Positions 1,672 to 29,628 of a stretch of DNA of 32,327 bases are shown here, one piece after another. Both the position numbers and the translations under genes were made by a program. The notes beneath the pieces were generated by a model, which did not search any database, was not told where the DNA came from, and worked only from the letters and a program-made list of their open reading frames with translations. Positions within the stretch are counted from its first letter, which is position 1; every line of letters starts with the position of its first letter. The DNA comes from Gemmatimonadaceae bacterium (lineage in GTDB: Bacteria; Gemmatimonadota; Gemmatimonadetes; Gemmatimonadales; Gemmatimonadaceae). The stretch lies in the NCBI GenBank assembly GCA_017881585.1, contig JADGQS010000021.1, positions 1 to 32,327 on the forward strand, written 5' to 3'.

Positions 1672-1709
1672 GATGGAAGATCGAAGATGGAGGACCGAAG
1701 ACCGAAACT
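1672..1709 (+). repeat. Heptad intergenic repeat, family A copy 1
   Basis: Five consecutive 7-base units fill 1672-1706 without interruption: one GATGGAA, one GATCGAA, one GATGGAG and two GACCGAA. ACT follows. The block starts right at the end of typA (its stop codon occupies 1710-1708 on the minus strand). The unit order closely matches the copy at 28652-28693, and the same units form an inverted array at 19839-19927. Confidence 0.8.
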
Positions 1710-3543
1710 ACACTTCCAAGCGCTCCTTCTTTGCTTCGCGCGAAATCTTCTTGCGATCGCTCACCGCCAGCTTCCGCTTGCGGAGCCGGATCGACTGCGG
1801 CGTGATCTCGATCAACTCGTCATCCTCGATATACTCCAGCGCCACCTCCAGCGTCAACACCCGAGGCGGCTCCAGGCTCACGTTATCATCGGTCGCCTTC
1901 GACCGCATGTTCGACAGCTTCTTTTCCTTCGTAGGATTGACGTCCATATCGCCCGGACGTGAATTCTCGCCGACGATCATTCCCTCGTAGACCACCTCGC
2001 CCGGCGAAACGAACAGCGTCGAACGCTCCTGAAGATTCCCGAGCGCGAACGCGATGATCGTCCCCGCTTCCATCGACACGAGCACGCCGCGCCCGCGACC
2101 CTCGAGGTTACCCGCCCACGGCCCGTACTCCAGGAACCGGTGGTGGATGATTCCCGTGCCGCGCGTGTCCGTCATGAACTGCGACCGATATCCGAACAGG
2201 CCACGAGCGGGAATCTTGTAAAGCAACCGTATCAATCCCTGCCCGGGGTTCTTCATCTCGATCATCTGCGCCTTGCGAGGTCCCAGCTCTTCCATCACGA
2301 CGCCCATGAATTCCTCGGGCACGTCGATCGCCAACTCCTCGTACGGCTCCAGCTTCTCACCGTTCGGCCCGCGGTGCGTGATCACACGCGGCCGCGAAAC
2401 CTGAAACTCATATCCTTCGCGGCGCATCGTCTCCATGAGGATCGACAGATGCAGTTCGCCGCGCCCGCTCACGGTCCAGGTATCGGTCGATTCCGTCTCT
2501 TCCACACGCAGCGCGACGTTCTTCTCAAGCTCCTTGTGCAGGCGCTCGAGAATCTGGCGCGAGGTGACGAACTTCCCTTCCTTGCCGGCAAAGGGCGAGT
2601 TGTTCACCAGGAAGTCCACCGAAATCGTCGGCTCCTCGACGGCGATGCCTTCGAGACGCTCGGGTGTCGCGGGATCGGTGAGCGTGAGTCCAATTTCCAC
2701 ACCCTCGAGACCCGCGAGTGCGACGATCTCACCGGCCGACGCGCTCGCGATCTCCGTGCGCTCGAGCCCCTCGAACGCGTACAGCTTCGTCACCTTGCTC
2801 GTCGCCGCCTTCGCCTCGTGATCGAGCGGCAACAGAGAAACGACATCACCGACATGCACCGTGCCGCGCTCGATCCTGCCAATCGCGAGACGGCCGAGGT
2901 ACGGCGAATAATCGATGGTCGAGACGAGCATCTGGAACGGCCCCACCGCGTCGTGCGGCGGCGCGGGCACGTGATCCATGATCGTCTGGAAGAGAGGCGT
3001 CAGGTCCTTCGCCTCGTCCTCCATATCGAGCGTCGACGTGCCAAGGCGGCCCGACGCGTACACGTACGGCGCGTTCAGCTGCGCCTCGTTGGCCTCGAGC
3101 TCGATGAACAGGTCGAGGACTTCCTCGTGCACGCGCATGGGGTCCGCGCCCGGACGATCGATCTTGTTGATGACGATGATCGGGGTGCGACCGAGCGCGA
3201 GCGCCTTGCGAAGCACGAAGCGCGTCTGCGGCATCGGACCGTCGAAGGCATCGACCACCAGCAGCACACCATCGACCATGCGCAGGATGCGCTCCACTTC
3301 ACCGCCGAAATCGGAGTGACCGGGAGTGTCGACGATGTTGAGCTTGGCGCCGTGCCAGCGGACCGAGGTGTTCTTCGCGAGGATCGTGATACCGCGCTCG
3401 CGCTCGAGCGGATTTGAATCCATCACACGCTCGGCGACGACCTGATTCTCACGAAAGGCACCGGCCTGACGGAGCATCTGGTCGACGAGCGTTGTTTTGC
3501 CGTGATCGACGTGGGCGATAATTGCGATGTTGCGGAGTTCCAT
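1708..3543 (-). CDS. typA: Translational GTPase TypA/BipA
   Basis: The 611-residue protein is full length for TypA (about 605-615). It is a ribosome-associated GTPase of the EF-G/LepA class, linked to ribosome assembly and stress or low-temperature adaptation. Visible GTPase motifs are G1 AHVDHGKTT (residues 10-18), G2 in ERERGITI, G3 DTPGH, and G4 NKID. They are followed by the beta-barrel domain, the EF-G-like domains and the TypA-specific C-terminal domain (SREAKKER at the end). I start it at ATG 3543, giving [18 protein letters not shown] as in orthologues; an upstream in-frame start at 3612 would add 23 unrelated residues. There is no clear Shine-Dalgarno. A TATACT box ends 10 bases before the ATG, so the leader would be only a few bases. 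Its stop codon is in direct contact with heptad repeat A1. Confidence 0.97.
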
Positions 3544-3552
3544 AGCCTGTGT

Positions 3553-3558
3553 AGTATA
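3553..3558 (-). promoter_or_regulatory. Possible -10 element of typA
   Basis: TATACT on the minus strand (3558-3553), the same hexamer as in front of lepA, ends 10 bases before the typA ATG. The transcript would begin about 3-4 bases before the start codon. No convincing -35 hexamer lies at 16-18 bases. The evidence is the hexamer and its position only. Confidence 0.4.
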
Positions 3559-3643
3559 ACGGATCGGGGCGCTCAAATGTGGACCCGACCGTTCTGCCGA
3601 AGACGGGATCATTGCGCGGGGCGATCGCGAAAAACGAGTAGAA

Positions 3644-3710
3644 GGTCATTGGTCGTTGGTCGTTGGTAATTGGCGACGCGCCAATGACCAAGAACCAACG
3701 ACCAACGACC
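3644..3710. repeat. Heptad palindrome, family B
   Basis: Two 32-base arms, 3644-3675 and 3679-3710, are inverted copies of each other at 28 of 32 positions and are separated by only ACG. Each arm is made of 7-base units of the TTGGTCG/TTGGTAA kind, seen as CCAATGA and CCAACGA on the other side. As RNA it would be a very long hairpin. It lies between the pilT-like stop (3741) and the typA start (3543) on the minus strand. It could therefore end or attenuate typA upstream read-in, or protect the pilT-like mRNA 3' end. No function is shown. Confidence 0.85.
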
Positions 3711-3740
3711 GATTACTCGCCTGCAAATCTTCCCGCTGCC

Positions 3741-5345
3741 TTACCGGCGAACTGGCGCCCCACCCGGCTTGCCACCAGCAGCCCCACCCTGCCCCGGCGC
3801 ACTGGCGTTCGCCGGCGCATTCAGCGGATCAGTGTCTGCGTACGACGTATCGAACCCCTTCTCCCTCAGCTTGTTGAGGAACGACCCCTTGTCGACCGAT
3901 CGCATGTACGCCTCTTTCGGCTCGATGATCTTCCGCTCGACCAGGTCGTACAGCGTGTCGTTCATCGTAATCATGCCGATCCGCTTGGACGTCTGCATGA
4001 TGCTGGGGATCTGATACGTCTTTCCCTCGCGAATCAGGTTCGAGATCGCGGGCGTGACGAGGAGAATTTCATGCGCGGCCACGCGGCCGCCGCCGATCTT
4101 CTTGCAGAGGACCTGCGACACCACGCCCTTGAGCGATTCGGAGAGCATGGTGCGCACCTGTTCCTGACGGTCGGCGGGGAACTGGTCGATCAGGCGGTCG
4201 ATGGTGCTCGCGGCCGTCGTCGTGTGCAGGGTGCCGAACACGAGGTGACCGGTCTCAGCCGTTTCGATCGCGATGGCGACCGTCTCGAGATCGCGAAGCT
4301 CGCCGACGAGAATGATGTCGGGGTCCTCGCGCAGTGCCGCGCGCAGCGCGCTCTTGAACGAATCCGTGTGCACCCCCACCTGACGCTGCGTGAGGATGCA
4401 GCTCTTGTTCTCGTGCACGAACTCGATCGGGTCCTCGATCGTGATCACGTGGTCGGAGCGCGAGCGATTCACGAGATCGACGAGCGCGCACAGCGTCGTC
4501 GACTTTCCGGAGCCGGTCGGCCCGGTGACGAGCACGAGTCCCTTCGTGAGGAAACAGAGGTTCTGCACTTCCTTCGAGATGCCGAGCTGGTCCGCCGTGA
4601 TGATCGTATTCGGGATCACGCGGAAGACGGCCGCCATTCCCTTGCGATCCTTCAGCGCGTTCGCGCGGAAGCGCGCGATGCCCTCGATCTCGTACGCGAA
4701 GTCGGTATCCGCATGTTCCGCGAATTCCTTCTTGTTCCGCTCGGGCATGATGGAGAACAGGAGCGACTCCACGTCTTCGTTGTTCAGCTTTCCTTCGTGC
4801 TCGAGCCGCCCCATCTCGCCGTGCTTGCGGAGGATCGGCGGTTCGCCCACGCGCATGTGCAGGTCGGATGCGCCTGCGCTCACCAGAGTGCGGAGCAGCG
4901 TTTCCATCGCCTGCTTGGCCTTCTCCGGCTTTTGCGCGTCCATCTTCACGCTCTTGCGGGAGGCGCGCGGCGCCGGTGCGGCATCTTCCGGCGGCAGCTG
5001 GATCGAAGCCGCGTTGATCATGCCGGTGCGGCGCACGAAGTCGCCTTTATCATCGACGACGATCGACACGTTCCACTTTCCGTTCTGCAGCATCGCGCGC
5101 ACCGAGAACACGCCCTCGGCACAATCGTAGCGGAACTTCGACGGCGTCTTCGCGTCGATCTGCTGCGCGGCGGCCGGAGTGGCGACCTCTTTGAGGAGCG
5201 AGACCACCTGCGCACCGGTCAGCGCCTTGGTGACGGGCTTCTCGACGTTGTCGACTTTCAGGATCGTGCCTTCGTCCTCGCGGAGGAGCAGCTCGTCGGC
5301 GCGGCTGCTGATCATCACGTTCAACAGGCGATCGAGTTGGGGCAT
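3741..5345 (-). CDS. pilT: PilT-family type IV pilus retraction ATPase with extra N-terminal domain
   Basis: This 534-residue protein carries a complete PilT core. The PAS-like N-domain lies at about 145-245 (SAGASDLHMRVGEPPILR). Walker A is GPTGSGKST at 275-283, the Asp box is ITIEDPIEFVHE at 301-312, Walker B is DPDIILVGELRD near 341-352, and the His box is ETGHLVFGTLHTTTA at 364-378. ISNLIREGKTYQI at 434-446 matches the PilT-specific AIRNLIREGK motif. PilT hexamers power pilus retraction and twitching. PilT is normally 340-380 residues. Here about 140 residues precede the core and look like a second, degenerate PilT N-domain (LDRLLNVMISSRADELLLRE...), joined by an Ala/Pro/Lys linker. The tail is Gly/Ala/Pro-rich. 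No other pilus gene is nearby. Start ATG 5345 is the only good candidate. A PilU-like or gliding paralogue role is possible. Confidence 0.88.
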   Translation of the reverse strand: MPQLDRLLNVMISSRADELLLREDEGTILKVDNVEKPVTKALTGAQVVSLLKEVATPAAAQQIDAKTPSKFRYDCAEGVFSVRAMLQNGKWNVSIVVDDKGDFVRRTGMINAASIQLPPEDAAPAPRASRKSVKMDAQKPEKAKQAMETLLRTLVSAGASDLHMRVGEPPILRKHGEMGRLEHEGKLNNEDVESLLFSIMPERNKKEFAEHADTDFAYEIEGIARFRANALKDRKGMAAVFRVIPNTIITADQLGISKEVQNLCFLTKGLVLVTGPTGSGKSTTLCALVDLVNRSRSDHVITIEDPIEFVHENKSCILTQRQVGVHTDSFKSALRAALREDPDIILVGELRDLETVAIAIETAETGHLVFGTLHTTTAASTIDRLIDQFPADRQEQVRTMLSESLKGVVSQVLCKKIGGGRVAAHEILLVTPAISNLIREGKTYQIPSIMQTSKRIGMITMNDTLYDLVERKIIEPKEAYMRSVDKGSFLNKLREKGFDTSYADTDPLNAPANASAPGQGGAAGGKPGGAPVRR

Positions 5346-5350
5346 AAGAC

Positions 5351-5424
5351 GATGCGGGATGCGGGGTGGGATGCGGGATTCGGAATTTCGACCCGAGGCA
5401 GAGTGCAGAAGAGGAATGCGGGTG
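5351..5424 (+). repeat. Heptad intergenic repeat, family C copy 1
   Basis: GATGCGG units occur at 5351-5357, 5358-5364 and 5370-5376. GATTCGG follows, then a core that starts CGGAATTTCGA at 5381 and runs to GGAATGCGGG at about 5422. The core includes GCAGAGT and GCAGAAG heptads. It fills the gap between the pilT-like start codon (5345) and the end of the cation-efflux gene (5432). A core 39/42 identical lies at 29581. Confidence 0.8.
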
Positions 5425-6404: not shown

Positions 6405-7715
6405 GTGCTGGCACGCATCGCGGTCATCGTCGTATTGCTGGTCCTCAACGGCTATTTCGTCGCGGTGGAGTTCGCCCTCGTGCGCTCGCGGCGCACCCGG
6501 CTGCAGGCGATGGTGCGCGCCGGCGATCCCCTCGCCCGCTTCGCCTATTCCGCTTCGGGAAATCTCGCCCGCGTGCTCTCCGCGAGCCAGCTTGGCATCA
6601 CCCTCGCCTCGCTCGGACTCGGCTGGACCGCCGAGAGCGCCCTCGGCCACTCGTTCGGGGAATTCTTCACGTCGCTCCCCTTCCCGATTGAAGAATCGCT
6701 CCGCGTCAGCATCGGCGCCATAGTCGCGCTGCTGCTGGCGACCTACCTGCAAGTGGTTTTCGGGGAGCTGGCGCCGAGGGCGGTGGCACTGAATCACCCG
6801 GAGCAGATCGCCAAGTGGCTCGCGCCGCCGCTGCTCGCGTTCGCGTGGGTCGCGTCGCCGTTCATCGCGGTGCTCAACGTGTCGGCGGGCGGGGCGCTCA
6901 GGCTCTTCGGGCAGAGCTCGAAGATCCAGCGCGAAGTGGTGCACTCGCCCGACGAGCTGCGCATGCTCGTGGAGCAGAGCGAGGAACAGGGCGCGCTCGA
7001 GACGACGGACGCCACGATGCTCGGGAAGGTGTTCGAATTCTCGGAGAAGAAGGCACGCGACGTCATGACCCCGCGCACGGATATCGTGGCGATGACGGCG
7101 GATGCGTCGCTCGACGACGCGCTCGAGGTGGTGGAGGAGGCGGGGTTCTCGCGCTATCCGGTGTTCGACGAGTCGATCGACAACATCATCGGGATGCTCC
7201 ACGTGAAGGACCTTCTCGGGGTGCTGCGCGAGAAGATCGACGAGTTCACGGTGCGGGACGTGATACGGGAAGTGCACGTGGTGCCGGGGTCACGCGAGGT
7301 TGAGGAGGTGCTCGCGGACTTCAAGAAGCGGAAGGAGCACATGGCGATCGTGCTGGACGAGTACGGGGGGACGGCCGGGCTCGTCACGATGGAGGATCTG
7401 CTCGAGGAGATCGTGGGGGAGATCCTGGACGAGTACGACGAGACGGTCGAGGTGCGGACGCCTTCGGCGCCTGGTGGAGAGACTTTGGTTGCGGGGGCCA
7501 CGAACGTGCGGGAGGTGAACGAGTCGTTCGCGTTGTCGGTGCCGGAGGAAGCTTACACGACGCTCGGGGGGTACGTGTTCGGCGTGCTCGGGCGGCTGCC
7601 TCTCGTTGGAGATCGGGTGACTGGGGGCGGGGCCACATTCATCGTGAGGGCCATGGATGGGAGACGGATCGAGACTTTGGCGCTCGAAAAAGCAAAGGGG
7701 ACGAGCGACGGGTGA
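6405..7715 (+). CDS. DUF21-CBS-CorC domain membrane protein (CorB/CNNM-like, 'hemolysin family')
   Basis: This 436-residue integral membrane protein is related to CorB/CorC and eukaryotic CNNM proteins, which act in Mg2+ or Co2+ export or homeostasis. The DUF21 transmembrane domain covers about residues 1-165 (NGYFVAVEFALVRSRRTRL; ASQLGITLASLGLGW). A CBS pair covers about 215-345 (DVMTPRTDIVAM at 219-230, DEYGGTAGLVTMEDLLEE at 318-335). The CorC_HlyC domain runs from about 355 to the end. The start is GTG 6405, giving MLARIAVIVVLLVLNG; no better site exists. It is divergent from the cation-efflux gene, so the two metal-transport genes share a 43-base gap. The last codons (GTSDG, stop) lie inside heptad repeat D, so the repeat supplies its C-terminus. 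Confidence 0.92.
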   Translation: MLARIAVIVVLLVLNGYFVAVEFALVRSRRTRLQAMVRAGDPLARFAYSASGNLARVLSASQLGITLASLGLGWTAESALGHSFGEFFTSLPFPIEESLRVSIGAIVALLLATYLQVVFGELAPRAVALNHPEQIAKWLAPPLLAFAWVASPFIAVLNVSAGGALRLFGQSSKIQREVVHSPDELRMLVEQSEEQGALETTDATMLGKVFEFSEKKARDVMTPRTDIVAMTADASLDDALEVVEEAGFSRYPVFDESIDNIIGMLHVKDLLGVLREKIDEFTVRDVIREVHVVPGSREVEEVLADFKKRKEHMAIVLDEYGGTAGLVTMEDLLEEIVGEILDEYDETVEVRTPSAPGGETLVAGATNVREVNESFALSVPEEAYTTLGGYVFGVLGRLPLVGDRVTGGGATFIVRAMDGRRIETLALEKAKGTSDG

Positions 7716-7767
7716 GGGGCTGGGCGAACGGCGCTCATCGCCGTTGGTCACCCGTCGCCCGTCGCCG
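7703..7767. terminator. Nested inverted repeat built of heptads (family D), probable bidirectional terminator
   Basis: CGACGGGTGA at 7706-7715 pairs exactly with TCACCCGTCG at 7748-7757. Inside it AACGGCG (7727-7733) pairs with CGCCGTT (7739-7745) around CTCAT. The right side is three 7-base units (GTCACCC, GTCGCCC, GTCGCCG, 7747-7767), and the left arm repeats them in inverse (CTCACCC, GTCGCTC). It is followed on the plus strand by GTTTTAG. It lies between two converging genes, which fits a two-way terminator. The structure is certain; the function is inferred. Confidence 0.65.
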
Positions 7768-7769
7768 TT

Positions 7770-8666
7770 TTAGAACCCCTCACTCTTCCTTTCAGCGAAC
7801 CGCGCGCACTGAAGGATCGCCTCGATCATGGATCCCGCATCCGCGCGATCCTGCCCCGCAATATCGATCGCCGTCCCATGATCCGGCGACGTGCGCGGGA
7901 ACGGCAGCCCCAGCGTCACGTTCACCGCATGGCCGAAGCTCGCCACCTTGATGGCGGTCATCCCGACGTCGTGATACGGGGCGATCACGGCGTCGAACTC
8001 GCCGCGCATGGCGCGTACGAAGACGGTGTCTGCGGGAAACGGGCCGGACATGCCTTCATCCCGCGCCACCGGACGCAGAATCCGGTCATCCTCGTCGCCG
8101 AAGCGGCCATGGTCGCCCGCGTGCGGATTCAGCGCGCAGAGCGCCAGCCGGGGCTCCGCAATTCCGTACCAGCGTCGCAGTCCCTCCCGCGTGAGCCGGG
8201 CCGCCCAGGCGAGGGCATCCGGCGTCACCGCGGCGGGAACGTCACGCAGCGCGATGTGCGTCGTGGCCAGCACCACGCGTAGGCGATCCGACGCGAGCAT
8301 CATCGCGGTGCGCGAGCCCGTGAGCGCGGCGAGCATCTCGGTATGCCCGGGAAAGTCGTATCCGCCCGCGAGCAACGCAGCCTTGTCGATGGGTGCGGTG
8401 ACGATGCCGTCGACTTCGCCGGCCGACGCCATCGCCACGACACGTTCGATGGCGGCGCCGGCGATGCGGCCCGCATCGGCGATCTCGCCGGGCGAGCGCC
8501 AGGAACCCACGGAAATGTCGGGACGCACTTCGAGGCCGGAGGGACCGACGATCACGGCCTCGCACGCCGCGGCGACGCGCGAATCGCCCAGCGCCTTGCG
8601 AACTATCTCCGCGCCAATGCCGCGGGGGTCGCCCAGCGTGATGGCGAGCCGCACGTGCGAGCCCAT
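7770..8666 (-). CDS. pdxA: 4-hydroxythreonine-4-phosphate dehydrogenase
   Basis: PdxA oxidises 4-phosphohydroxy-L-threonine in the DXP-dependent pathway to pyridoxal phosphate and uses a divalent metal. The 298-residue protein starts MGSHVRLAITLGDPRGIGAE. It keeps the expected metal-site histidines in TTHIAL (H137), NPHAG (H182) and PYHDVGM (H232), the substrate-region FPGHTEML (H108), and TSPDHGTAIDIAG near the end. It is somewhat shorter than the usual 320-330 residues, mainly in the N-terminal half. The ATG at 8666 overlaps the surA-like stop as TGATG, so translation is coupled; a GTG one codon upstream is equally possible. It is the last gene of the mfd-prsA-surA-pdxA run. A pdxA next to surA is also seen in proteobacteria (surA-pdxA-ksgA), which supports both assignments. 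Confidence 0.95.
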   Translation of the reverse strand: MGSHVRLAITLGDPRGIGAEIVRKALGDSRVAAACEAVIVGPSGLEVRPDISVGSWRSPGEIADAGRIAGAAIERVVAMASAGEVDGIVTAPIDKAALLAGGYDFPGHTEMLAALTGSRTAMMLASDRLRVVLATTHIALRDVPAAVTPDALAWAARLTREGLRRWYGIAEPRLALCALNPHAGDHGRFGDEDDRILRPVARDEGMSGPFPADTVFVRAMRGEFDAVIAPYHDVGMTAIKVASFGHAVNVTLGLPFPRTSPDHGTAIDIAGQDRADAGSMIEAILQCARFAERKSEGF

Positions 8667-17941: not shown

Positions 17942-17970
17942 CCGGGAGCACCGCGCGCAGCTCAAGAACG

Positions 17971-18000
17971 TTAGGGGAGAAGCTCGCGCGCGACTATACT
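17971..18000 (+). promoter_or_regulatory. Probable lepA promoter
   Basis: TATACT at 17995-18000 is a good -10. TTAGGG at 17971-17976 is a weak -35 with an 18-base spacer. Transcription would start about 18007, giving a leader of roughly 30 bases that includes the AAGGA site before GTG 18039. This argues against the in-frame ATG at 18003 as the start of lepA. Confidence 0.5.
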
Positions 18001-18038
18001 TAATGATTGGAAGAAAGCACACCCGAACAAGGACCGAC

Positions 18039-19835
<1,797 letters not shown>

Positions 19836-19837
19836 AA

Positions 19838-19928
19838 CGATGGAAGATGTAAGATCGAAGATGGAAGTTGTGCGCGATCTTCGGTGAGCATCTTCTATCT
19901 TCCATCTTACATCTTCGATCTTCCATCG
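19838..19928. repeat. Inverted heptad repeat, family A copy 2
   Basis: The left arm 19839-19866 contains four 7-base units (GATGGAA, GATGTAA, GATCGAA, GATGGAA). The right arm 19900-19927 is their inverse with the two middle units exchanged, so 24 of 28 positions pair. An additional TTCTATC unit precedes the right arm. The arms are 33 bases apart. The element fills the gap from the lepA stop to two bases before the next ATG. It could terminate the lepA transcript, and it leaves no room for a ribosome site in front of the glycosyltransferase. Confidence 0.88.
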
Positions 19929-19929
19929 C

Positions 19930-22942: not shown

Positions 22943-23832
22943 CCGTTGTCATTGCCGTTCCCTCATCGCTGGACGACCTCACGTTCGAGAGCGTGCTCGA
23001 CCAACTGGCGCAACACCCCGCCGACGCGAAGGTCATCGTCGACGCCCGCCATGCCACGTTCGCGACGCCGTACGGGCTCACCGCGCTGCTGACGCTCGCG
23101 CAGACACGCGCCGAGAAGGCCGAGTTCCTGCCGCCGGAGAATCCCGACACGGTTTCGTACTGGGCGCGCGCGGGCTTCTTCCGCTACGCCGAGGAGTTGT
23201 TCGACGTGCGCGGGCATGTGCCGCGTCCGCGGTCTGCCGGCGAGAGCGACGTGCTGCTCGAGGTGACACCCGTCACCAAGAGCGACGACGTCCACGGGGT
23301 GGTGGAGCGCATCCAGGAGCGCGCCGCGAGCATACTATTGAACAAGCTGCATCTCGAATCGCGCGCGACGATGGGCTTCGCGATGACGCTGTCGGAGGCG
23401 TGCCAGAACATCGTGGAGCATGCCGGGCGCGGCGGATGGGTGATGGTGCAGGCCTACAATTATCGCCGGCGCCTCGGCGGACGGTTCGTGGTGGTGATCG
23501 CGGTGTGCGATGCCGGCGTGGGGTTTCGCTCGTCACTTGAGAGTGGGCAGCGTCGCCCGCTGTCCGATCGGTGGGACGACGCCGTCGCGCTGGAAGCCGC
23601 GGTGGTGAACGGCGTGAGCCGCTACGGCGATCCGGGCCGCGGCCAGGGCCTCAAGGGAATTCGCGGATATGTGCATCGGTGGGAAGGAAAGCTTTCGGTG
23701 CGAAGCGGTACGGCACGGATCGCGCTCATCCCGAGCTGGGACGACGACGTGCCGCGCCGCGAGGGTCTCGCATTCTTTCCGGGCGCGCAGTTACAAATCA
23801 CCATTCCAGAAAAAGTGAGCGCTGTAGCGTGA
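22939..23832 (+). CDS. STAS-like domain fused to a histidine-kinase-type ATPase (RsbW/anti-sigma-like)
   Basis: The 297-residue protein joins two domains. Residues about 1-90 resemble a STAS domain (KVIVDARHATFATPYGLTALL) with PENPDTVSYWARAGFF after it; the site where antagonists carry a phosphorylatable Ser has none. Residues about 145-290 are a GHKL ATPase. The N box has E153 and Q156-N157 (LSEACQNIVEH), G1 is CDAGVGF at 190-196, and G2 is GRGQGLKG at 233-240. No histidine phospho-acceptor or dimerisation domain is present, so it is more like an RsbW/SpoIIAB switch kinase than a sensor kinase. GTG 22939 overlaps the PfkB stop (GTGA), and its own stop overlaps the next STAS gene (GTGA). I infer that the two form a partner-switching pair; the target is unknown. 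Confidence 0.78.
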   Translation: MTVVIAVPSSLDDLTFESVLDQLAQHPADAKVIVDARHATFATPYGLTALLTLAQTRAEKAEFLPPENPDTVSYWARAGFFRYAEELFDVRGHVPRPRSAGESDVLLEVTPVTKSDDVHGVVERIQERAASILLNKLHLESRATMGFAMTLSEACQNIVEHAGRGGWVMVQAYNYRRRLGGRFVVVIAVCDAGVGFRSSLESGQRRPLSDRWDDAVALEAAVVNGVSRYGDPGRGQGLKGIRGYVHRWEGKLSVRSGTARIALIPSWDDDVPRREGLAFFPGAQLQITIPEKVSAVA

Positions 23833-24377
23833 CGCGAATCGATGTCGGTTCGGTCCTCAGGCATTCGGCGAACCTTCCGTTCTCCGATCTTGTCACGCGC
23901 CCGACGGGCGCGGCCGTGAGGCGGTGCATCCAGACGGAGCTCGCCGCGCTCAGCGAAGGCGACGTGGCTCTCCTCGACTTCTCGCATATCGGCATGATGG
24001 ACTATTCGTGTGCCGACGAGGTGGTCGCGAAACTCCTGATTGCGCTGGCGGGCCAGGACGCGCACGCGGGGTACATCGTCTTCCACGGCATCACCGACGC
24101 GCACCTCGAAGCGATCGAAGTCGTGCTCGACCACCACGGCCTCGCCCTCGTCGTGCAGTTCGCCGACGGCGGCGCGCGCCTCGTCGGCTCGGTGAGCGAC
24201 GAAGAACGCGCGATCTGGGAGATGGTGTATGCGCGCGGATCCGCGGCGGCGGCCGACGTCGCCGACGTCGCCGGCCGCGAGCCCGCCGAGATGGCGCGCA
24301 TCCTCGAGTCGCTGCTGCGCCGCCGGCTGCTCCGGCACGACGGCGTCACGTACGCTCCGCTCGGCCCGGTGCAGTAA
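23829..24377 (+). CDS. STAS-like protein with C-terminal winged helix
   Basis: The 182-residue protein has a STAS or DUF4325-like core at about residues 25-115. ALLDFSHIGMMDYSCADEVV contains an Asp-Tyr-Ser (D58-S60) at the place where SpoIIAA-type antagonists have their phosphorylated Ser. Residues 124-177 (ERAIWEMVYARG...AEMARILESLLRRRLLRHDGVTY) look like a winged helix-turn-helix whose last strands read out as HDGVTYAPL. A STAS domain joined to a winged helix suggests a regulator whose DNA or protein binding is switched by the ATPase encoded just before it (4-base GTGA overlap). It overlaps the following small gene by one base (TAATG). The STAS and winged-helix calls are by eye; the phosphorylation is inference. 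Confidence 0.68.
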   Translation: MTRIDVGSVLRHSANLPFSDLVTRPTGAAVRRCIQTELAALSEGDVALLDFSHIGMMDYSCADEVVAKLLIALAGQDAHAGYIVFHGITDAHLEAIEVVLDHHGLALVVQFADGGARLVGSVSDEERAIWEMVYARGSAAAADVADVAGREPAEMARILESLLRRRLLRHDGVTYAPLGPVQ

Positions 24378-24682
24378 TGGCGCACACCCCGCCGCTGCAA
24401 GTCGTCGGGTTCATCGGTACTCGCGTCTCCGACGCCGAACGCGGCCCGCTGGTCATGCTCAACGCCGACGAAGCACGCCAACGGCTGGTCAACGACGGCG
24501 AACTGGTGTGGGTGTACGGACCGCGGCGCCACGACCTGGCGCCCGTAATGATCGATGACAGTGTTCCACGAGGCGGCGTCGTCGTGCGCGACATCGCAGG
24601 CCTCGCACCGACCGAGATCGTCCGGCTGATCAAGGTGGACACGGACCGTCCGGTGCTCGCCACGCCGCCGCGCGCGAAATAG
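24377..24682 (+). CDS. 101-residue conserved-looking protein, possible double-psi beta-barrel
   Basis: The protein begins MAHTPPLQVVGFIGTRVSDAERGPLV and then has LNADEARQRLVNDGELVWVYGPRRHDLAPVMIDDSVPRGGVVVRDIAGLAPTEIV across residues about 29-83. The order 'x-L-x-x-x-x-A-x-x-x-x-x-x-x-G-x-x-V-x-V' followed by 'x-A-x-V-x-I-D-D-x-V-P-x-G-x-V' resembles the aspartate-decarboxylase-like barrel found in molybdopterin-binding C-terminal domains and Cdc48 N-domains. No catalytic residues, signal peptide or membrane segment are seen. It overlaps the STAS protein gene by one base and is followed 21 bases later by the trans-sulfuration gene, so it is in the operon. The fold idea is tentative; I do not know the function. 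Confidence 0.6.
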   Translation: MAHTPPLQVVGFIGTRVSDAERGPLVMLNADEARQRLVNDGELVWVYGPRRHDLAPVMIDDSVPRGGVVVRDIAGLAPTEIVRLIKVDTDRPVLATPPRAK

Positions 24683-24703
24683 AGCCCTGAGGAGACCGTT
24701 CCG

Positions 24704-25861
24704 ATGAGCAAGAAGAAGGGGTCGCAGTCCCTGTCCACGATCGCGATCCACGGCGGAGCCGAGACGCGCCACGCGGGCGATCCGGTGGTCGCGCCGCTCG
24801 TCCAGTCGGTGAACTACGTGCAGGAAGTCGGCACGGGCGCCGGCCTCAAATACACGCGGTACGGCAACACCCCGAACGCCGAGCGCATCCAGAAGCGGAT
24901 CGCCATGCTCGAGGGCGCCGAAGCGTCGCTCGTGCTGAGCAGCGGCATGGGCGCCACGGCGTGCGCGATGCTCGCACTGCTCCGCCCGGGGGACCACCTG
25001 CTGGCGAGCGCGTACATCTATGGAGGGACTCACCGGCTGCTCACCGAAGAGTTCAACCGCCACGGCATCGACGTGACGCTGGTGGATCCGCTCGAGCCGC
25101 GTGCGTGGCGCAAGCGGCTGCGCAAGGAAACACGCGCGATTTTCGTGGAGTCGCCGGTGAACCCGACGTGCCGCGTGCTCGACCTGCGGCCCATCTCCTA
25201 TCTCACGAAGGAAGTGGGTCTCGCGCTCGTCGTGGACTCCACGTTCGCGAGTCCTGTCAATTTTCGTCCAATCGAGCACGGCGCCGACGTCGTGATCCAC
25301 TCGGCCACCAAGTATCTCAACGGCCACCACGACGTGCTCTCCGGAGTCGTCGCGGGCACCGAGAGCTACATCCAGGAAGTGCTGCAGAAGGAGATGGTCT
25401 GGGGACAGACGCCCGACCCCTTCGCCCTCTGGCTGCTGGAGCGCGGCCTCAAGACGATCGACGTCCGCGTGCGCCGCCAGAACGACAACGCGATGCGGAT
25501 CGCGCACTGGTGCTCGGACCGGAAGGAGATCAAGCGCGTCCACTACCCCGGACTCTCCGACCACCCGGATCACGAGATCGCGCGGGCCATGCTGGACGGC
25601 TTCGGCGGCATGCTCGCGCTCGAGCTCGCGGGCGGCGGCAAGGCCACGGACAAGTTCCTGCGCCGCCTGAAGCTGATCACGCACGCGGCGAGCCTCGGCG
25701 GCGTCGACTCGCTCATCTGTGAGCCGCGGTACACGTCGCACGCCGCGATGTCGAGCGAGGAACGCGCGCGCATCGGCATTCCTGACGGCTTCCTGCGCCT
25801 CAGCATCGGGATCGAGGATGCCGACGACATCATCGCCGACATCGAACAGGCGTTGAAGTAG
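24704..25861 (+). CDS. Trans-sulfuration PLP enzyme (cystathionine gamma-synthase/beta-lyase family)
   Basis: This 385-residue Cys/Met-metabolism PLP enzyme has KYTRYGNTPNAERIQKRIA at the N-terminus with the phosphate-binding Tyr-x-Arg (Y50, R52). It also has SSGMGATACAM and YIYGGTHRLL, the cofactor Asp in LALVVDSTFASP (D178), and the PLP-binding lysine in HSATKYLNGHHDVLSG (K203). The C-terminal domain has SLGGVDSLICEPRYTSHAAM. Members make cystathionine, break it, or act as O-acetylhomoserine sulfhydrylase or methionine gamma-lyase; sequence by eye cannot separate these. The SLGG...P...SH block fits gamma-synthase/gamma-lyase. GAGGAGA eight bases before the ATG is the strongest ribosome site in this operon. 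It is followed by ftsE after 3 bases, an unexpected neighbour for amino-acid metabolism. Confidence 0.92.
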   Translation: MSKKKGSQSLSTIAIHGGAETRHAGDPVVAPLVQSVNYVQEVGTGAGLKYTRYGNTPNAERIQKRIAMLEGAEASLVLSSGMGATACAMLALLRPGDHLLASAYIYGGTHRLLTEEFNRHGIDVTLVDPLEPRAWRKRLRKETRAIFVESPVNPTCRVLDLRPISYLTKEVGLALVVDSTFASPVNFRPIEHGADVVIHSATKYLNGHHDVLSGVVAGTESYIQEVLQKEMVWGQTPDPFALWLLERGLKTIDVRVRRQNDNAMRIAHWCSDRKEIKRVHYPGLSDHPDHEIARAMLDGFGGMLALELAGGGKATDKFLRRLKLITHAASLGGVDSLICEPRYTSHAAMSSEERARIGIPDGFLRLSIGIEDADDIIADIEQALK

Positions 25862-25864
25862 GGA

Positions 25865-26569
25865 ATGATCCGTTTCACGCACGTCTTCAAGGAATTCCCC
25901 CGCACCGGGCTGGCGCTGCAGGATGTGTCGTTCCACGTGGCCAAGGGCGAGTTCGTCTTTCTCACGGGCCCGAGCGGTGCCGGCAAGAGCACGATCCTCA
26001 AGCTGGTCTTCCTCGAGGAACGGCCGACCAAGGGCGAGGTGAAGGTCAGCGGCGTGAGCTCGGTCACCATCCGCGGCCGCGACGTGCCCCGCCTGCGCAG
26101 GAAGATGGGCGTGATCTTCCAGGATTTCCGCCTGCTCGAGGACCGCAGCGTCGAGGCGAACATCGCGTTCGCGCTCGAGGTCACCGGCGCGCCGCCGTCC
26201 GCCATCGGCCCCAAGGTGAGCCGGCTGCTGGGACAGGTCGGGCTCGCGTCGAAGGCGACGTCGCTGCCCCGCGAGCTCTCCGGCGGCGAACAGCAGCGCG
26301 TGGCGATCGCGCGCGCGCTCGCGAACGATCCCGTCGTGCTGATCGCGGACGAGCCCACGGGCAACCTCGACGAGCGCGCCACGCGCGGTATCTTCCAGCT
26401 CCTGCGCGACATCAACGCGAACGGCACGGCGGTGATCTTGGCGACGCACGATCTCGAGCTGATCCGCCGCGCCGAATGCCGGACGATCGAGATGAACCAC
26501 GGCGCGATCGTGTTCGATTCCGCCGACCAAGCCTCCACACACCCTGCCCCGGGAGCGAACTCGCCATGA
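25865..26569 (+). CDS. ftsE: Cell division ATP-binding protein FtsE
   Basis: FtsE is the ATPase of the FtsEX ABC-like complex at the division site, which couples ATP use to activation of cell-wall amidases. The 234-residue protein begins MIRFTHVFKEFPRTGLALQDV. Walker A is GPSGAGKST (35-43). The Q-loop is in GVIFQDFRLLED, the ABC signature is LSGGEQQRVAIARAL, Walker B is VLIADEPTGNLD, and the switch His is in ATHDLELI. The tail after NHGAIVFDS is short and low in complexity. It starts 3 bases after the trans-sulfuration stop and overlaps ftsX by 4 bases (ATGA). The ftsX neighbour and the DEPTGNLD motif separate it from LolD. Confidence 0.96.
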   Translation: MIRFTHVFKEFPRTGLALQDVSFHVAKGEFVFLTGPSGAGKSTILKLVFLEERPTKGEVKVSGVSSVTIRGRDVPRLRRKMGVIFQDFRLLEDRSVEANIAFALEVTGAPPSAIGPKVSRLLGQVGLASKATSLPRELSGGEQQRVAIARALANDPVVLIADEPTGNLDERATRGIFQLLRDINANGTAVILATHDLELIRRAECRTIEMNHGAIVFDSADQASTHPAPGANSP

Positions 26570-27414
26570 GGCTCGCCTGGCGTGAGGCCTTCCTCGCCTT
26601 CAAGCGCGCCCCGGTGCTCAGCATCCTCAGCATCACGACCATCGCGTTCTCGCTCTTCGCGTTCGGCCTGTTCGGCCTCGTGGCACTGAACATCCGGCGC
26701 CAACTCAGCCAGCTCGAAGAACGCGTCGAGATCCGCGCCTTCGTGGTGGACGGCACGAACGCCGAGGCCACCAGCGCCGCGCTCGGCGACATCGCCTCGT
26801 TCCCGGAAGTCCTGTCCGTGAAGCTCGTGTCGCCCGAGGAGGCGCTGGTGCGCGCCCGCCGCGAGCTCGGCGAGTTCAGCGACGTGTTCGAGGCCGGAAT
26901 CCTTCCCGCGTCGATCGACGTGAGGCTCAAGGAAGGGTACCGCGATCCCGCCACGGTGTCGGCCGTCGCCGGCCGCATCAAGAACTACGACTTCATCGAC
27001 GACGTGCGATTCGGCGAGGAGTGGGTGCAGAAGCTCTATCGCATTCGCAACATCGCGACGATCGCCGGCGCGGTGCTCGGCCTGGCTTTCGCCGGCGTGG
27101 CGGTGATCATCATCGGATCGACGATCCGCATGGCCGTGCTCGCGCGATCACGCGAGATCTCGATCATGCGCGTCGTCGGCGCGACGGACGGGTTCATTCG
27201 CAGCCCGTTCCTGATCGAGGGCCTGCTCAAGGGCACGCTCGGCGGGCTGCTCGCGCTGCTGCTCACATGGCTCGCCAATTCACTGATCGGGAAATTCGTG
27301 TTCAGCGCGGAATTCTTCGACACGAAGTTCGCCGTGGCCGGAGTGGCCGCGGGCGCACTGATCGGCCTGCTCGGCAGCGCGTTCTCGGTCGGGCGGCACT
27401 TGCGGGAGGTGTAG
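26566..27414 (+). CDS. ftsX: Cell division membrane protein FtsX
   Basis: FtsX is the four-span membrane partner of FtsE. The 282-residue protein has TM1 near residues 18-40 (VLSILSITTIAFSLFAFGLFGLV). A periplasmic domain at about 45-155 (VEIRAFVVDG, then DVFEAGILPASIDVRL, the FtsX N-PG-like region) is followed by three spans (around 162-185, 215-235 and 253-275). REISIMRVVGATDGFIRSPFLIEGLLKG is the typical FtsX loop. ATG 26566 overlaps the ftsE stop, giving MRLAWREAFLAFKRAP, as in orthologues. The stop TAG shares its last base with the GTG of the coiled-coil peptidase-like gene, so ftsE, ftsX and the latter form one unit. The periplasmic loop is where EnvC/PcsB-type partners dock. Confidence 0.95.
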   Translation: MRLAWREAFLAFKRAPVLSILSITTIAFSLFAFGLFGLVALNIRRQLSQLEERVEIRAFVVDGTNAEATSAALGDIASFPEVLSVKLVSPEEALVRARRELGEFSDVFEAGILPASIDVRLKEGYRDPATVSAVAGRIKNYDFIDDVRFGEEWVQKLYRIRNIATIAGAVLGLAFAGVAVIIIGSTIRMAVLARSREISIMRVVGATDGFIRSPFLIEGLLKGTLGGLLALLLTWLANSLIGKFVFSAEFFDTKFAVAGVAAGALIGLLGSAFSVGRHLREV

Positions 27415-28640
27415 TGAAGTACGGCCGCACGGCACTGCTCGCCATCGCGCTCCCGGTCGCGCTGCTCAATCCGCAGCGCATTCGCGCCCAGCAGGCCGCC
27501 CCTCCCCAGGCCCCGCAGCAGAACGCCGCCGAACGCCTCAAGGCACAGAAAGACGAGCTCGAAAAGATCCGTCTCGAGCGCGCCGACCTGCAGCGCCGCA
27601 TGCGCGACCTGCAGTCCACCGTGCACGACCTCTCCGAGGAGCGCACGAACATCGCGCGCCAGGCCGACGCGACGGCGCGCGCGGTGCACACGCTCGACAA
27701 ACAGCTCAACGTCCTCGCCGACGAGGAGAACGACGCCACCGCGAACCTGATCCGCGCGCAGGACGAACTCGCGATCAAGCGCGCGGTGCTGCGCAACCGC
27801 GTGCGCGAGATCTACAAGCGCGGAGCGCTGTATTCGGTCGAAGCCATGCTCTCGGCGCAGTCGTTCGGCGAGCTGGTGTCGCGCTACAAGTACCTGCACC
27901 TCGCCGCGCAGCGCGACCGCGCGCTGGTGCACCGCGTGGAGGCGCTCGGCCAGCAGATCGGCAACCAGCGCCAGATGCTGGTGACGCTGCGAGGCGACGT
28001 CGAGATCTCGAGGCAGCAGAAGGCGGACGAGGAGACGCAGCTGCGCGCTCTGGACGAAAAGCGCGCGCGGAGCCTGGCGCAGGCGCAGGCGAAGGAGAAG
28101 CAGACTGAGAGCCGCCTCGCGCAGATCGCGAGGGACGAGGCCCGCCTCGGCAACGTCATCGCCCTGCTCGAGGTCGAGCGCAAGCGCGCCGAGGGACGCA
28201 GCGGCAGCAACTTCCCCTCGAACAGCACGCTGAAGACCGCCGATTTCGGCCGGCTCGACTGGCCGGTCGAGGGCAACATCATCTACCAGTTCGGCCGTCT
28301 CGTGAACCCCAACAACACGACCACGCGGTGGAACGGGATCGGCATCGCCGCGGCGGAGGGGACGCCGGTGAAGGCCGTCGCGGCGGGCGTCGTCGCGCTC
28401 GTCGACGAAAGTTTCGGCACATACGGCAGGACGGTCGTGATCCAGCACGGCGGCAACGACTACTCGATCTACAGCTCGCTCGGCAGGATCTCCGTCACGA
28501 AAGGGACGAAGATCGTGAAGGGCCAGGCGATCGGCACGGTCGGAAAATCGGATCCCGAAATGGAACCGCACCTCCATTTCGAGATGCGCCCCGGCCAGCG
28601 CGCCGTGGATCCGCTCGAGTGGCTGCGCTCGAGAAGGTGA
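27414..28640 (+). CDS. envC: EnvC-like murein hydrolase activator (coiled coil plus degenerate LytM/M23 domain)
   Basis: The 408-residue exported protein has a signal peptide (ALLAIALPVALLNPQRIRAQQ). A long coiled coil covers about residues 35-260 (LKAQKDELEKIRLERADLQ, many heptads), and the LytM/M23-type domain is at about 285-405. Active M23 enzymes have HxxxD then HxH. Here the first motif reads RWNGIGI (305-311), with Asn and Gly in place of His and Asp, much as E. coli EnvC reads RWKGMVI. The second motif HLHFEMR (386-392) is kept. It is therefore probably a non-catalytic activator of amidases that FtsEX controls. GTG 27414 overlaps the ftsX stop by one base. In gram-positives the equivalent partner is PcsB. 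A gene for the amidase itself is not in this window. Confidence 0.9.
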   Translation: MKYGRTALLAIALPVALLNPQRIRAQQAAPPQAPQQNAAERLKAQKDELEKIRLERADLQRRMRDLQSTVHDLSEERTNIARQADATARAVHTLDKQLNVLADEENDATANLIRAQDELAIKRAVLRNRVREIYKRGALYSVEAMLSAQSFGELVSRYKYLHLAAQRDRALVHRVEALGQQIGNQRQMLVTLRGDVEISRQQKADEETQLRALDEKRARSLAQAQAKEKQTESRLAQIARDEARLGNVIALLEVERKRAEGRSGSNFPSNSTLKTADFGRLDWPVEGNIIYQFGRLVNPNNTTTRWNGIGIAAAEGTPVKAVAAGVVALVDESFGTYGRTVVIQHGGNDYSIYSSLGRISVTKGTKIVKGQAIGTVGKSDPEMEPHLHFEMRPGQRAVDPLEWLRSRR

Positions 28641-28651
28641 AAAAGAAAGGC

Positions 28652-28693
28652 GATGGAAGATCGAAGATGGAAGATCGAAAACCGAAGTCCGAA
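28652..28693 (+). repeat. Heptad intergenic repeat, family A copy 3, running into nfo
   Basis: Six units fill 28652-28693: GATGGAA and GATCGAA alternate twice, then AACCGAA and GTCCGAA. The unit order parallels copy 1 at 1672, including the two trailing NNCCGAA units and the AC that follows. The ATG at 28667-28669 used for nfo is part of the third unit, so the repeat encodes the protein's first nine residues (MEDRKPKSE). GGAAG in the first unit lies about 7 bases before that ATG and may serve as the ribosome site. Confidence 0.85.
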
Positions 28694-29572
28694 ACGGCGG
28701 GCGGTCTGCTCGGCGCGCACATCTCGACGGCGGGCGGAGTGGTCAACGCTCCCCCGCGCGCCGACGACATCGGCGCGACGGCGATGCAGATCTTCACGAA
28801 GCAGCCGAATCGCTGGGCCGAGCACGAGATTGCGCCGGAGGACGCCGCGGCGTTTCGTGACGCGCTCGCGAAAAGCGGCGTGCGCTTCACGAACGCGCAC
28901 GACAGCTACCTGATCAATCTCGCCTCGCCCGACCCGGCGCTCCGCGACAAGTCAATCGGGAGTTTTCGCGCGGAACTGAGGCGGTGCCACGCGCTCGGGC
29001 TCGACGCGCTCGTGTCGCATCCCGGAAATTTCATGGACGACCGCGCCGACGGAATCGCGCGAAACGCGGACGCGATCACGCAGTCGCTCGAACAGGAACC
29101 GGGGGCCACGCGCCTGCTCATGGAGCTCACCGCCGGCCAGGGCACGGTGATCGGCTCGACGTTCGAGGAGATGGCGCTGCTGCTGACGAAGATTCCCGCA
29201 AGGCTTCGAAAACGCATGGGCGTGTGCCTCGACACGGCACACGTGTTCGCCGCCGGCTACGACCTGATCAAGGACTACGACGGCGTCTGGGCACGATGCG
29301 AAGACGTCCTTGGCATCGAACGGCTCGGGCTGCTGCATCTGAACGATTCCAAGACGCCGCTTGGTTCGAGGAAAGACCGGCACGAACTGCTCGGCGCCGG
29401 GGAGATCGGCGCGGGCCCGTTCGAAAGGATCATGCGGGACCAACGCCTCGCGAACATCCCCAAGGTGCTCGAAACGCCGAAGGGGGACGATATGGTCACG
29501 AACGATCGGCGGATGCTGAAGATGCTGCGGGCGTTCGCTGAAAAGGGCGCGGGAGAGAGTGGGGAGAGATGA
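28667..29572 (+). CDS. nfo: Deoxyribonuclease IV (endonuclease IV), AP endonuclease
   Basis: Nfo cleaves DNA 5' of abasic sites in base-excision repair using three zinc ions. The 301-residue protein has LGAHISTAGG (15-24) as in all members and every expected metal ligand: H78 (NAHDSYL), H118 (SHPG), E153 (LLMELTAGQG), D189 and H192 (VCLDTAHVFAAGYD), H224 (LLHLNDSK), D237 and H239 (SRKDRHELLGAGEIG) and E269 (VLETPKGD). Residues 1-10 are unlike the family because they derive from heptad repeat A3. The usual start would be close to LLGAHIS, but no ATG or GTG exists there, so ATG 28667 is the nearest start. It follows envC by 26 bases, is the last gene of the operon, and ends before repeat C2. 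Confidence 0.95.
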   Translation: MEDRKPKSETAGGLLGAHISTAGGVVNAPPRADDIGATAMQIFTKQPNRWAEHEIAPEDAAAFRDALAKSGVRFTNAHDSYLINLASPDPALRDKSIGSFRAELRRCHALGLDALVSHPGNFMDDRADGIARNADAITQSLEQEPGATRLLMELTAGQGTVIGSTFEEMALLLTKIPARLRKRMGVCLDTAHVFAAGYDLIKDYDGVWARCEDVLGIERLGLLHLNDSKTPLGSRKDRHELLGAGEIGAGPFERIMRDQRLANIPKVLETPKGDDMVTNDRRMLKMLRAFAEKGAGESGER

Positions 29573-29580
29573 GACGAATA

Positions 29581-29628
29581 CGGAATTTCGAGCCGATGCA
29601 GAATGCAGAAGAGGAATGCGGGATGCGG
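29581..29628 (+). repeat. Heptad intergenic repeat, family C copy 2
   Basis: The core beginning CGGAATTTCGA at 29581 and reaching GGAATGCGGG at about 29622 matches the copy at 5381-5422 at 39 of 42 positions in the same orientation. GCAGAAT, GCAGAAG and GCGGGAT heptads are visible, followed by GCGGTACC. It lies between the nfo stop and the convergent lipoprotein gene. Confidence 0.82.

Follow-up and report, generated by a model that had tools for sequence, protein, structure and literature searches.

The intergenic DNA of this Gemmatimonadaceae genome holds arrays of tandem seven-base units, which are dispersed in families, often paired as inverted arms, and lodged at slots that persist in close relatives while the family often differs and some palindrome centres are flipped. 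In a close relative, the gap, its mirror symmetry and the heptamer rhythm are frequently retained with other words in them, which points to unusually active DNA copying or repair. The elements were studied in a window of 32,327 nucleotides (the whole stretch analysed, on contig JADGQS010000021.1), in its host genome (G000), in the sister species G001 (~94% identical) and in further Gemmatimonadota genomes.

Heptamer arrays, palindromes and unit families

All seven places that the sequence-only reading had described as blocks of 7-base units were covered by TRF arrays of period 7 (or 14), namely 1672-1706, 3644-3673, 3681-3710, 5351-5383, 7747-7766, 19839-19867, 19889-19927, 28652-28687 and 29596-29610 (Table 1). 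A stricter segment scorer passed only 1672, 3644/3681 and 19839/19890 in the called intergenic DNA of the window. The elements at 5351, 7703 and 29581 were sub-threshold alone under this scorer; those at 5351 and 29581 are backed by their matches to a dispersed core found 28 times in the host genome, and that at 7703 by its strong palindrome fold (-59.2 kcal/mol, 7680-7790). The same reading put each block a few bases from a start or stop codon, which holds only in part: 3644-3710 is 100 bp away from the start of typA and 30 bp away from the PilT-like stop codon, and 7703-7715 overlaps a gene end. Its four unit families were an undercount.

Table 1. Heptamer elements of the window and the state of the same slots in relatives
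Position	Strand	Element	Support and setting	Same slot in relatives
1672..1709	.	One-arm array, GGAAGAT family (GATGGAA/GATCGAA/GACCGAA)	TRF and segment scorer; gap between small gene and typA	G001: length differs by 21 bp (three units)
3644..3710	.	Palindrome, GGTCRTT family, CGAGT...ACTCG at or near the ends	TRF, fold, segments; gap between PilT-like gene and typA	G001 and G016: GTTAACC-type palindrome
5351..5424	.	One-arm member, dispersed GGATGCG / GGAATTTCGACCCGATGCAG family	TRF; core match 5382-5401	G001: same GGATGCG family
7703..7767	.	Palindrome, GGCGACG/GGTGACG family	Fold; between convergent CorC-like and pdxA genes, left end overlapping the end of the CorC-like gene	G001: longer nested palindrome; G016: a different one (GGCGACT units)
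19838..19928	.	Palindrome, GGAAGAT family	TRF, fold, segments; gap between lepA and glycosyltransferase family 9 gene	G001 and G016: GGAAGCC palindromes; other species: other heptamers
28652..28693	.	One-arm array, GGAAGAT family	TRF; pattern match 28656-28675; gap between M23 peptidase and TIM-barrel genes, within a gene call that is probably too long (28619-29572)	G001: same units, unchanged
29581..29628	.	One-arm member, GGATGCG / GGAATTTCGASCCGATGCAG family	Core match 29582-29601; convergent gap	G001: partial inverted partner ~200 bp further on

A blind sample of 20 contig stretches of the host genome, picked by number, comprised 207 kb with 20.3 kb of intergenic DNA. The intergenic part contained 13 period-7 segments, where dinucleotide shuffles (20 each) gave 0.0; the coding part (187 kb) contained 2, and other periods from 2 to 21 gave 0-2 segments each, except for period 14 with 7. 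Period-7 arrays therefore exceed shuffled controls, as the sequence-only reading had expected, and their origin by chance is excluded beyond the window; tandem 7-bp units above chance in intergenic DNA place them among heptanucleotide SSR/STRR. The 13 segments corresponded to 10 places, or ~150 per genome by extrapolation. The signal averaged over all intergenic DNA was small (lag 7, +0.024; lag 14, +0.023, relative to the median lag).

Many of the blocks were palindromes in which an array faces an inverted partner, a feature that the earlier reading had missed; some were one-armed. Among gaps picked by position, 25 of 207 had an inverted-repeat score of at least 14, compared with none of 621 shuffled gaps. 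Palindromes by score occupied 8 of 24 convergent gaps versus 12 of 152 co-directional ones. They were also found in 8 of 42 divergent gaps, so the early impression from the window of a strict location at gene 3' ends was abandoned. Strict arrays were found in 1 of 45 divergent gaps. The window's own convergent gaps scored 0/2 because the gap 7715-7770 is shortened by gene overlap.

Several unit families occurred together in the one genome. The GGAAGAT family was found in at least 40 places, its three-unit arrays giving 159 hits (reversed control, 0), and the GGTCRTT family in 17 places, with 23 hits for three-unit arrays. The GGATGCG-type core GGAATTTCGASCCGAKGCRG had 69 hits in G001, 28 in the host genome, 7 in G016, 5 in G008, 1 in G015 (where the reversed control also gave 1) and 0 in 13 other genomes. 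The genus data show high-copy intergenic palindromes and are in this respect REP-like. The palindrome ends were defined and inverted (GCGAGTAA...TTACTCGC), and of 298 Gemmatimonadota genomes two, G000 and G001, contained GCGAGTAA-N40-70-TTACTCGC. GGAAGAT, GGCAGAC and GGAAGCC units match pairwise at 5/7 positions, so a stepwise change of unit with homogenisation is possible among them; a common ancestry of all units was rejected, as the similarity among the 13 families compared was not above that of shuffled units (574/2000 as high).

Family differences at the same slots

We compared 38 slots between G000 and G001, each included because one of the two genomes has an element there: 17 held the same family, 19 a different family and 2 were empty, both in G000. 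Ordinary descent without unit-number variation, which the sequence-only reading had named as the contrary case, does not describe these slots, since they differ in unit number and in family; some were unchanged, as in L195 and 28652, where G001 has the same units. Unit-number variation between relatives was present at 1672 (21 bp), L163 and L170. In the seven two-armed GGAAGAT slots differing from G001 (L167, L169, L171, L172, L173, L177 and 19838 of the window), both arms differed in all, and at L169 and L173 this was so around a retained central terminator-like hairpin. L167 in the host genome showed an apparent remnant of the inner end of a GGCRGAC right arm beside its GGAAGAT units; this right arm was seen in G001 and in G016, the latter having the right arm only. 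L152 and L154 have their outer layers in common and different interiors. Dialects of units were also observed, the same slots having GGTCRTT units in G000, GTTAACC-type units in G016 and a mixture in G001. Since a ~94% identical pair carries different palindromes at the same slots, together with an apparent remnant and flipped centres, the process that makes or rewrites them becomes testable from sequence.

Centre orientation was scorable in three of the five family-C slots tried. The centre was flipped at L197 (inverted 114 vs direct 31) and L153 (96 vs 33), while L201 had no clear orientation (24 vs 23). The arms of GGATGCG-family elements were more alike within an element (0.876) than between elements (0.839; 21 elements, 0/5000 permutations), and also in G001 alone (11/5000); family-C arm likeness in G000 alone, with 6 elements, was not significant (838/5000). 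Own-element and other-element values showed no excess for GGAAGAT (0.781 vs 0.787, n=15) or GGTCRTT (0.713 vs 0.714, n=14). Own arms being no closer than foreign ones, local arm-to-arm copying is not visible in these two families and was rejected for them on this arm-likeness test.

Distribution in the genus and the phylum

In 13 palindromes that were selected in six other species by position, without regard to repeats, the arm self-match was 0.42 at lag 7 and 0.46 at lag 14; the lag-7 null for these palindromes was 0.268 (sd 0.021, maximum 0.33 of 200 shuffles). The earlier suggestion of one copying mechanism that tolerates any unit gained from this in part: period 7 is common to different units across the genus and units differ at orthologous slots, with which a DNA-level copying process is compatible. 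However, the shared period has its limits. Across all intergenic sequence from 12 relatives, lag 7 (+0.015) was unremarkable and not distinct from lags 3, 12, 14 and 15 (+0.012 to +0.016), and strict arrays were few (3 segments, two in G001 and one in G012). In the syntenic stretch, no palindrome reached the score in 5 of the 12 (G002, G004, G005, G009 and G015).

Outside the genus, 28 stretches from 28 other Gemmatimonadota genomes (58.7 kb intergenic) gave six segments of period 8, four of period 7, three each of periods 9 and 6, two of period 10 and one each of periods 12-15, against 0.25 at period 7 and 0 elsewhere in shuffles. Palindromes were found in 17 of 205 gaps, with no single clear arm lag (7: 0.351, 8: 0.345, 6: 0.338). 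Period 7 as a universal unit was rejected, as periods 8 and 9 also occur in other genera of the phylum.

Relation to known repeats

Cyanobacteria carry tandem heptamers, the STRR, and very small mobile repeats dispersed through intergenic DNA; Elhai 2008 reportedly deals with repeats of this kind. The elements described here are like them in their tandem or dispersed intergenic units and belong to another phylum, and we know of no paired inverted arms with exchanging families in the cyanobacterial case. The sequence-only reading took STRR as its precedent, but heptanucleotide repeats are better known than it allowed (PMC4679880, PMC4692102). In Xanthomonas, GGGAATC heptamers are dispersed and mostly intergenic (89% and 93%), and neighbouring sites in convergent orientation number 70 pairs in Xcc and 75 in Xac (Rehm and colleagues 2015, PMC4692102). 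Our elements are similar in being dispersed intergenic heptamers that include inverted pairs. They differ from the one G-rich unit type per genus described there (PMC4692102) in that many units occur and orthologous slots keep the palindrome while the family differs. The TAACTGA repeats of Beggiatoaceae, with 169 direct sets in one genome, are likewise abundant, mostly intergenic heptamers; they have a single unit, stand mostly just upstream of start codons and include one inverted case only (PMC4679880). REP/BIME-type palindromes are also intergenic, with many copies whose numbers vary between strains (PMC3733652, PMC2884548). They resemble the present elements as many-copy intergenic palindromes, whereas here the arms are long with a 7-bp period and the genus has no Y1 transposase match.

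A report of 2007 described an excess of heptamers in the intergenic DNA of bacteria, and a polymerase contact of 7 nt that favours slippage was proposed for long simple sequence repeats in prokaryotes (Mrazek 2007), both as told in PMC4679880, whose consulted account of those repeats does not mention palindromes or slot exchange. In the literature consulted, PMC4679880 among it, proposals have been made for the cause of heptamer arrays in bacteria and none is settled. Heptamer repeats, even inverted ones, were thus already known; the exchange of heptamer palindromes at slots is the part not found described in titles or abstract openings, and nothing was found on intergenic tandem repeats in Gemmatimonas. 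The exchange would bear on the turnover of small intergenic palindromes without a known transposase.

Origin of the elements

Tentatively, and with doubt slightly outweighing belief, we consider that heptamer palindromes are grown by slippage and rewritten through templated repair or recombination at the DNA level. Strand slippage would create and lengthen the arrays; the palindromes would form hairpins or cruciforms that may break or stall replication; and repair would then copy from other palindromes of the same cell and recombine an element's own arms. As an outcome, families would be homogenised genome-wide and interiors flipped or replaced, the slot, the mirror symmetry and the period staying while the unit changes. 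What maintains the elements would be processes acting on the DNA, with an RNA function not the main cause. In favour of this reading are the excess of palindromes over shuffled gaps, the slots at which both arms differ, the apparent remnant at L167, the flipped centres at L197 and L153, the within-element likeness of GGATGCG-family arms, the shared outer layers of L152 and L154 and the near-equal G-U and A-C mismatches. An SbcD-like protein had matches in all 18 genus genomes, above the curated cut-off in only one. Against it, arm-to-arm copying is not visible in the GGAAGAT and GGTCRTT families, nor is the family-C test significant in G000 alone, and units of different families are no more similar than shuffled ones. 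The change of both arms around a retained centre (L169, L173) is not what simple gap repair from the centre outward would predict, slippage and repair give no reason for the period being 7, and the defined ends and lineage-limited bursts also suit transposition. Slippage acting independently at each site, in the manner of STRR, is supported as one likely component by unit-number changes (e.g., 21 bp at 1672 and L163) and by the one-arm arrays. As a complete account it is very improbable and largely refuted, because the same units stand at 40 places or more with 0 hits in the reversed control, and paired inverted arms with shared non-repeat cores need dispersal.

The main rival, which we regard as possible but rather unlikely, is that MITE-like non-autonomous palindromes are moved by a candidate transposase that favours convergent gaps or existing palindrome centres, newer copies replacing older ones. 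The defined ends confined to G000 and G001 of 298 genomes, the lineage-skewed copy numbers of the core (69 in G001, 28 in G000, 0 in 13 others), the nested layers and the two slots empty in G000 all agree with it. But a search limited to Y1 (Y1_Tnp, RAYT-type) transposases matched 0 of 18 genus genomes and 5 of 14 control genomes, and Y1/RAYT mobilisation was rejected on this result; the inverted ends come with no target-site duplication established at the empty slots; and movement explains neither the arms differing around a retained centre (L169, L173) nor 7-bp units in family after family. Species-specific binding-site arrays, in which a putative DNA-binding or uptake protein would select units and each lineage rewrite its slots to its own dialect (cf. 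DNA uptake sequences), appear improbable. The slot dialects are consistent with them, as are GGAAGAT and GGTCRTT arms that behave like draws from a genome-wide pool, yet different families occur side by side in a single genome, and strict arrays are rare outside intergenic DNA (2 segments in 187 kb of coding sequence). Uptake sequences number thousands per genome (PMC3630211); the count here, which took in arrays of three units, gave 159 and 23 hits. More improbable still are terminators or transcript-end stabilisers under selection on folded RNA. The enrichment in convergent gaps, the rarity of strict arrays in divergent ones and several centres resembling intrinsic terminators by eye speak for such hairpins; the palindromes in divergent gaps and the heptamer arms outside terminator-like centres speak against them. 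Sense-strand mismatches in 45 co-directional elements (G-U 70, A-C 65; G-U outnumbered A-C in 18 elements, A-C outnumbered G-U in 15, and 12 were ties) showed no G-U excess, and selection on RNA hairpins was rejected on this comparison, whose power is low if the arms are young. A known RNA family was likewise rejected, Rfam at gathering score matching one tRNA only in the window. An intrinsic-terminator scan of 17000-32000 was uninformative (6 sites vs 7.6 expected).

Beside repair-driven rewriting of palindromes grown by slippage, we hold it unlikely that the slots are lasting palindrome sites at which a sequence-indifferent DNA process rewrites both arms wholesale, keeping slot, symmetry and unit length and yielding lineage dialects. 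If true, this would amount to genome-wide concerted evolution at the DNA level with a unit length set per lineage (7 here; 7, 8 or 9 elsewhere). Copying by a reverse transcriptase or in a telomerase-like manner was rejected: RVT_1 matched none of 14 near-complete genomes, including G000 and G001, and 1 of 18 in all (G014, half of the model, in a genome 78% complete). An SbcD-like protein had matches in all 18 genus genomes, above the curated cut-off in only one.

Heptamer arrays and palindromes

The sequence-only reading had described seven intergenic blocks of the window (starting at 1672, 3644, 5351, 7703, 19838, 28652 and 29581) as runs of 7-base units, and this periodicity was borne out by TRF, which detected arrays with a period of 7 or 14 at each of these places. 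For the chance test in the window's own genome (G000; 3.09 Mb in 240 contigs, about 90% complete, the window being contig C167), 20 contig stretches (207 kb) were chosen by contig number alone, genes were called with a codon-usage script and self-matches were scored at every shift. The 20.3 kb of intergenic DNA held 13 period-7 segments, spread over 10 places, along with 7 of period 14; the remaining periods from 2 to 21 had 0 to 2 each, dinucleotide shuffles gave 0.0 segments at period 7, and 187 kb of coding DNA contained 2 period-7 segments. Averaged across all intergenic DNA, the lag-7 excess was only 0.024, since just a small share of that DNA belongs to the elements. Blocks 5351, 7703 and 29581 were too degenerate for the scorer alone and were admitted via family membership or palindromy. 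Strict arrays occupied 2/28 convergent, 10/167 co-directional and 1/45 divergent gaps.

Several window blocks are palindromes, a left array standing opposite an inverted right array, a feature absent from the sequence-only reading. At 60 fetched loci of three families, named by their units GGTCRTT, GGAAGAT and GGATGCG (family C), the inverted-repeat score was at least 14 in 43 of the 54 analysed gaps. By eye, the GGTCRTT family has conserved ends GCGAGTAATCGG...CCGATTACTCGC, the GGAAGAT family (G)CGATGGAAGAT...ATCTTCCATCG(C) and family C a long mirror unit about GGAATTTCGACCCGATGCAGAGTGCGGAAGAGGAAT, with a terminator-like hairpin often at the element centre. Score 14 was reached by 25 of the 207 gaps chosen by position, which came from the 20 stretches of G000 and from 12 syntenic relatives, vs 0 of 621 shuffled gaps; with the window added, palindromes lay in 8/24 convergent, 12/152 co-directional and 8/42 divergent gaps.

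The families are dispersed. In G000, three GGTCRTT units gave 23 matches (17 places by hand count) and three GAAGATS units with at most one mismatch gave 159, at no fewer than 40 places as counted from the exact matches; reversed controls of both patterns gave 0. The family-C core (at most two mismatches) matched 28 times in G000, 69 in the sister species G001, 7 in G016, 5 in G008 and once in G015, equalling the single match of the reversed control there, and had 0 matches in the other 13 of the 18 genus genomes. Among 298 Gemmatimonadota genomes, the GCGAGTAA palindrome occurred in two, G000 and G001. G000 itself belongs to an uncultured bacterium of this phylum, to which 24 LepA relatives at 75-98% identity are assigned by name.

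Exchange of families between close relatives

Window positions 1257-31711 have syntenic counterparts in G001, where three blocks share about 94% identity and the last 88.5%, and in G016, at 73-87% depending on the block; the alignments are interrupted at several repeat blocks. In the orthologous intergenic gap (slot) at lepA, the arms are GGAAGAT in G000 and GGAAGCC in G001 and G016; G003, G010, G012 and G017 have other units, and in G015, G011, G002 and G005 the gap is just 31-50 bp. A script with a loose threshold found a period-7 stretch at 8 of 23 Gemmatimonadota lepA loci, a count that omits the G016 palindrome owing to a wrong gene start. The eight include GCTATCA (locus L090), GGTGCTA (L087) and the CAGCAGA array of L083.

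Our G000-G001 comparison covered 38 slots: 7 in the window, 20 from G000 elements (40 loci fetched, 23 in the flank query, 20 with a usable ortholog) and 11 from G001 elements (20 fetched, 16 used, 11 with a usable ortholog). The family was the same in 17 (5 window, 10 G000-picked, 2 G001-picked) and different in 19 (2, 10 and 7), "different" including units identical at 5 of 7 positions (GGAAGAT, GGCAGAC, GGAAGCC), and 2 slots were empty in G000; the slots were chosen for an element in one genome, and this split is not a genome-wide rate. Identities were available on both sides for 27 slots; in 21 of these each flank was at least 87% identical, and in the other six one flank was at 79-87%. 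The family reading agreed with a script count for 16 slots and was made by eye for the other 22; at L187 in G001, none of the listed families matched by script count. At L152 and L154 an outer GAGTGGC-type layer is common to both genomes and the interiors differ, and GAGTGGC-type sequence is also readable in family-C outer ends. The L168 slot is possibly in a mixed or transitional state.

Cyanobacterial STRR serve as a comparison system. The elements fit a known kind, intergenic heptamer repeats that are sometimes inverted. Heptamers are reported as the commonest category of long repeats (Mrazek 2007, via PMC4679880), and GGGAATC arrays including convergent inverted pairs in Xanthomonas (PMC4692102), TAACTGA arrays (PMC4679880), REP superfamilies (PMC3733652) and uptake-sequence dialects (PMC3630211) are described. 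What is new here is that families are exchanged at slots between close relatives, of which no description was found in the literature searched.

Possible origin of the elements

In family C, an element's own arms were more alike (0.876) than arms of different elements (0.839; 0 of 5000 permutations; G001 alone 11 of 5000, the six G000 elements alone 838 of 5000). The GGAAGAT and GGTCRTT families had no such own-arm excess, and at L169 and L173 both arms differ between G000 and G001 around a retained centre, which argues against a purely local process. Together with signs of recombination, namely family-C centres inverted between G000 and G001 at L197 and L153 (five slots tried, three scorable, L201 ambiguous), the shared outer layers, and L167, where G000 appears to keep part of a right arm common to G001 and G016, this led us to a tentative proposal, to which we give slightly less than an even chance: slippage would act on the heptamer arrays, and break- or stall-induced repair would copy from other palindromes in the same cell. 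A match to an SbcD-like protein was present in all 18 genus genomes, above the curated cut-off in one. The main rival is that a putative transposase moved the elements; Y1_Tnp was absent from all 18 genomes, and RVT_1 matched in just one (G014), partially. As for selection on RNA, sense-strand mismatches in 45 co-directional elements, many pattern-fetched, were 70 G-U vs 65 A-C, a balance that gives no sign of it, the test being weakened if the arms are young.

Period across species and genera

Thirteen position-picked palindromes from six other species had a self-match of 0.42 at lag 7 and 0.46 at lag 14 (null 0.268, sd 0.021, maximum 0.33 among 200 shuffles). Lag 7 reached 0.564 for 18 G001 palindromes and 0.392 for 11 of G016, both above their own null maximum; some palindromes, e.g., those of G011, are without the period, and lag 7 was not singled out in pooled intergenic DNA of relatives. 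Outside the genus (28 stretches, 28 genomes), 6 segments were at period 8, 4 at period 7 and 3 at period 9, and no single lag stood out in the arms of 17 palindromes. Further features are listed in the table.

Coordinates of additional features in the window and at fetched loci (L)
Location	Position	Strand	Feature
Window	29690-31678	minus	662-aa reading frame; no Pfam match at E 1e-8
Window	17627-18038		Divergent 412-bp gap upstream of lepA with another GC-rich inverted repeat (GGGCATGTCCCACGGG...), mostly retained in G001, partly in G016; no period-7 segment by scorer
L083	4798-4878		Near-perfect CAGCAGA array, >11 units, directly 3' of lepA; no inverted partner within its gap
L154 (G001, contig C98)	~560-640		Separate ~17-bp tandem repeat (GGAGCAGTCATGAGAGC-like) within family-C palindrome
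L168 (G000, contig C38)	~540-620		GGAAGAT array, then apparent half GGTCRTT palindrome
L256 (other Gemmatimonadota genera)	15037-15130; 5217-5246		Period-8 and period-9 arrays (L256 and L260 taken together), some inverted pairs
L260 (other Gemmatimonadota genera)	14453-14767; 18581-18813		As for L256
L256/L260 set			TTCGTACC arrays of ~96 and ~123 bp
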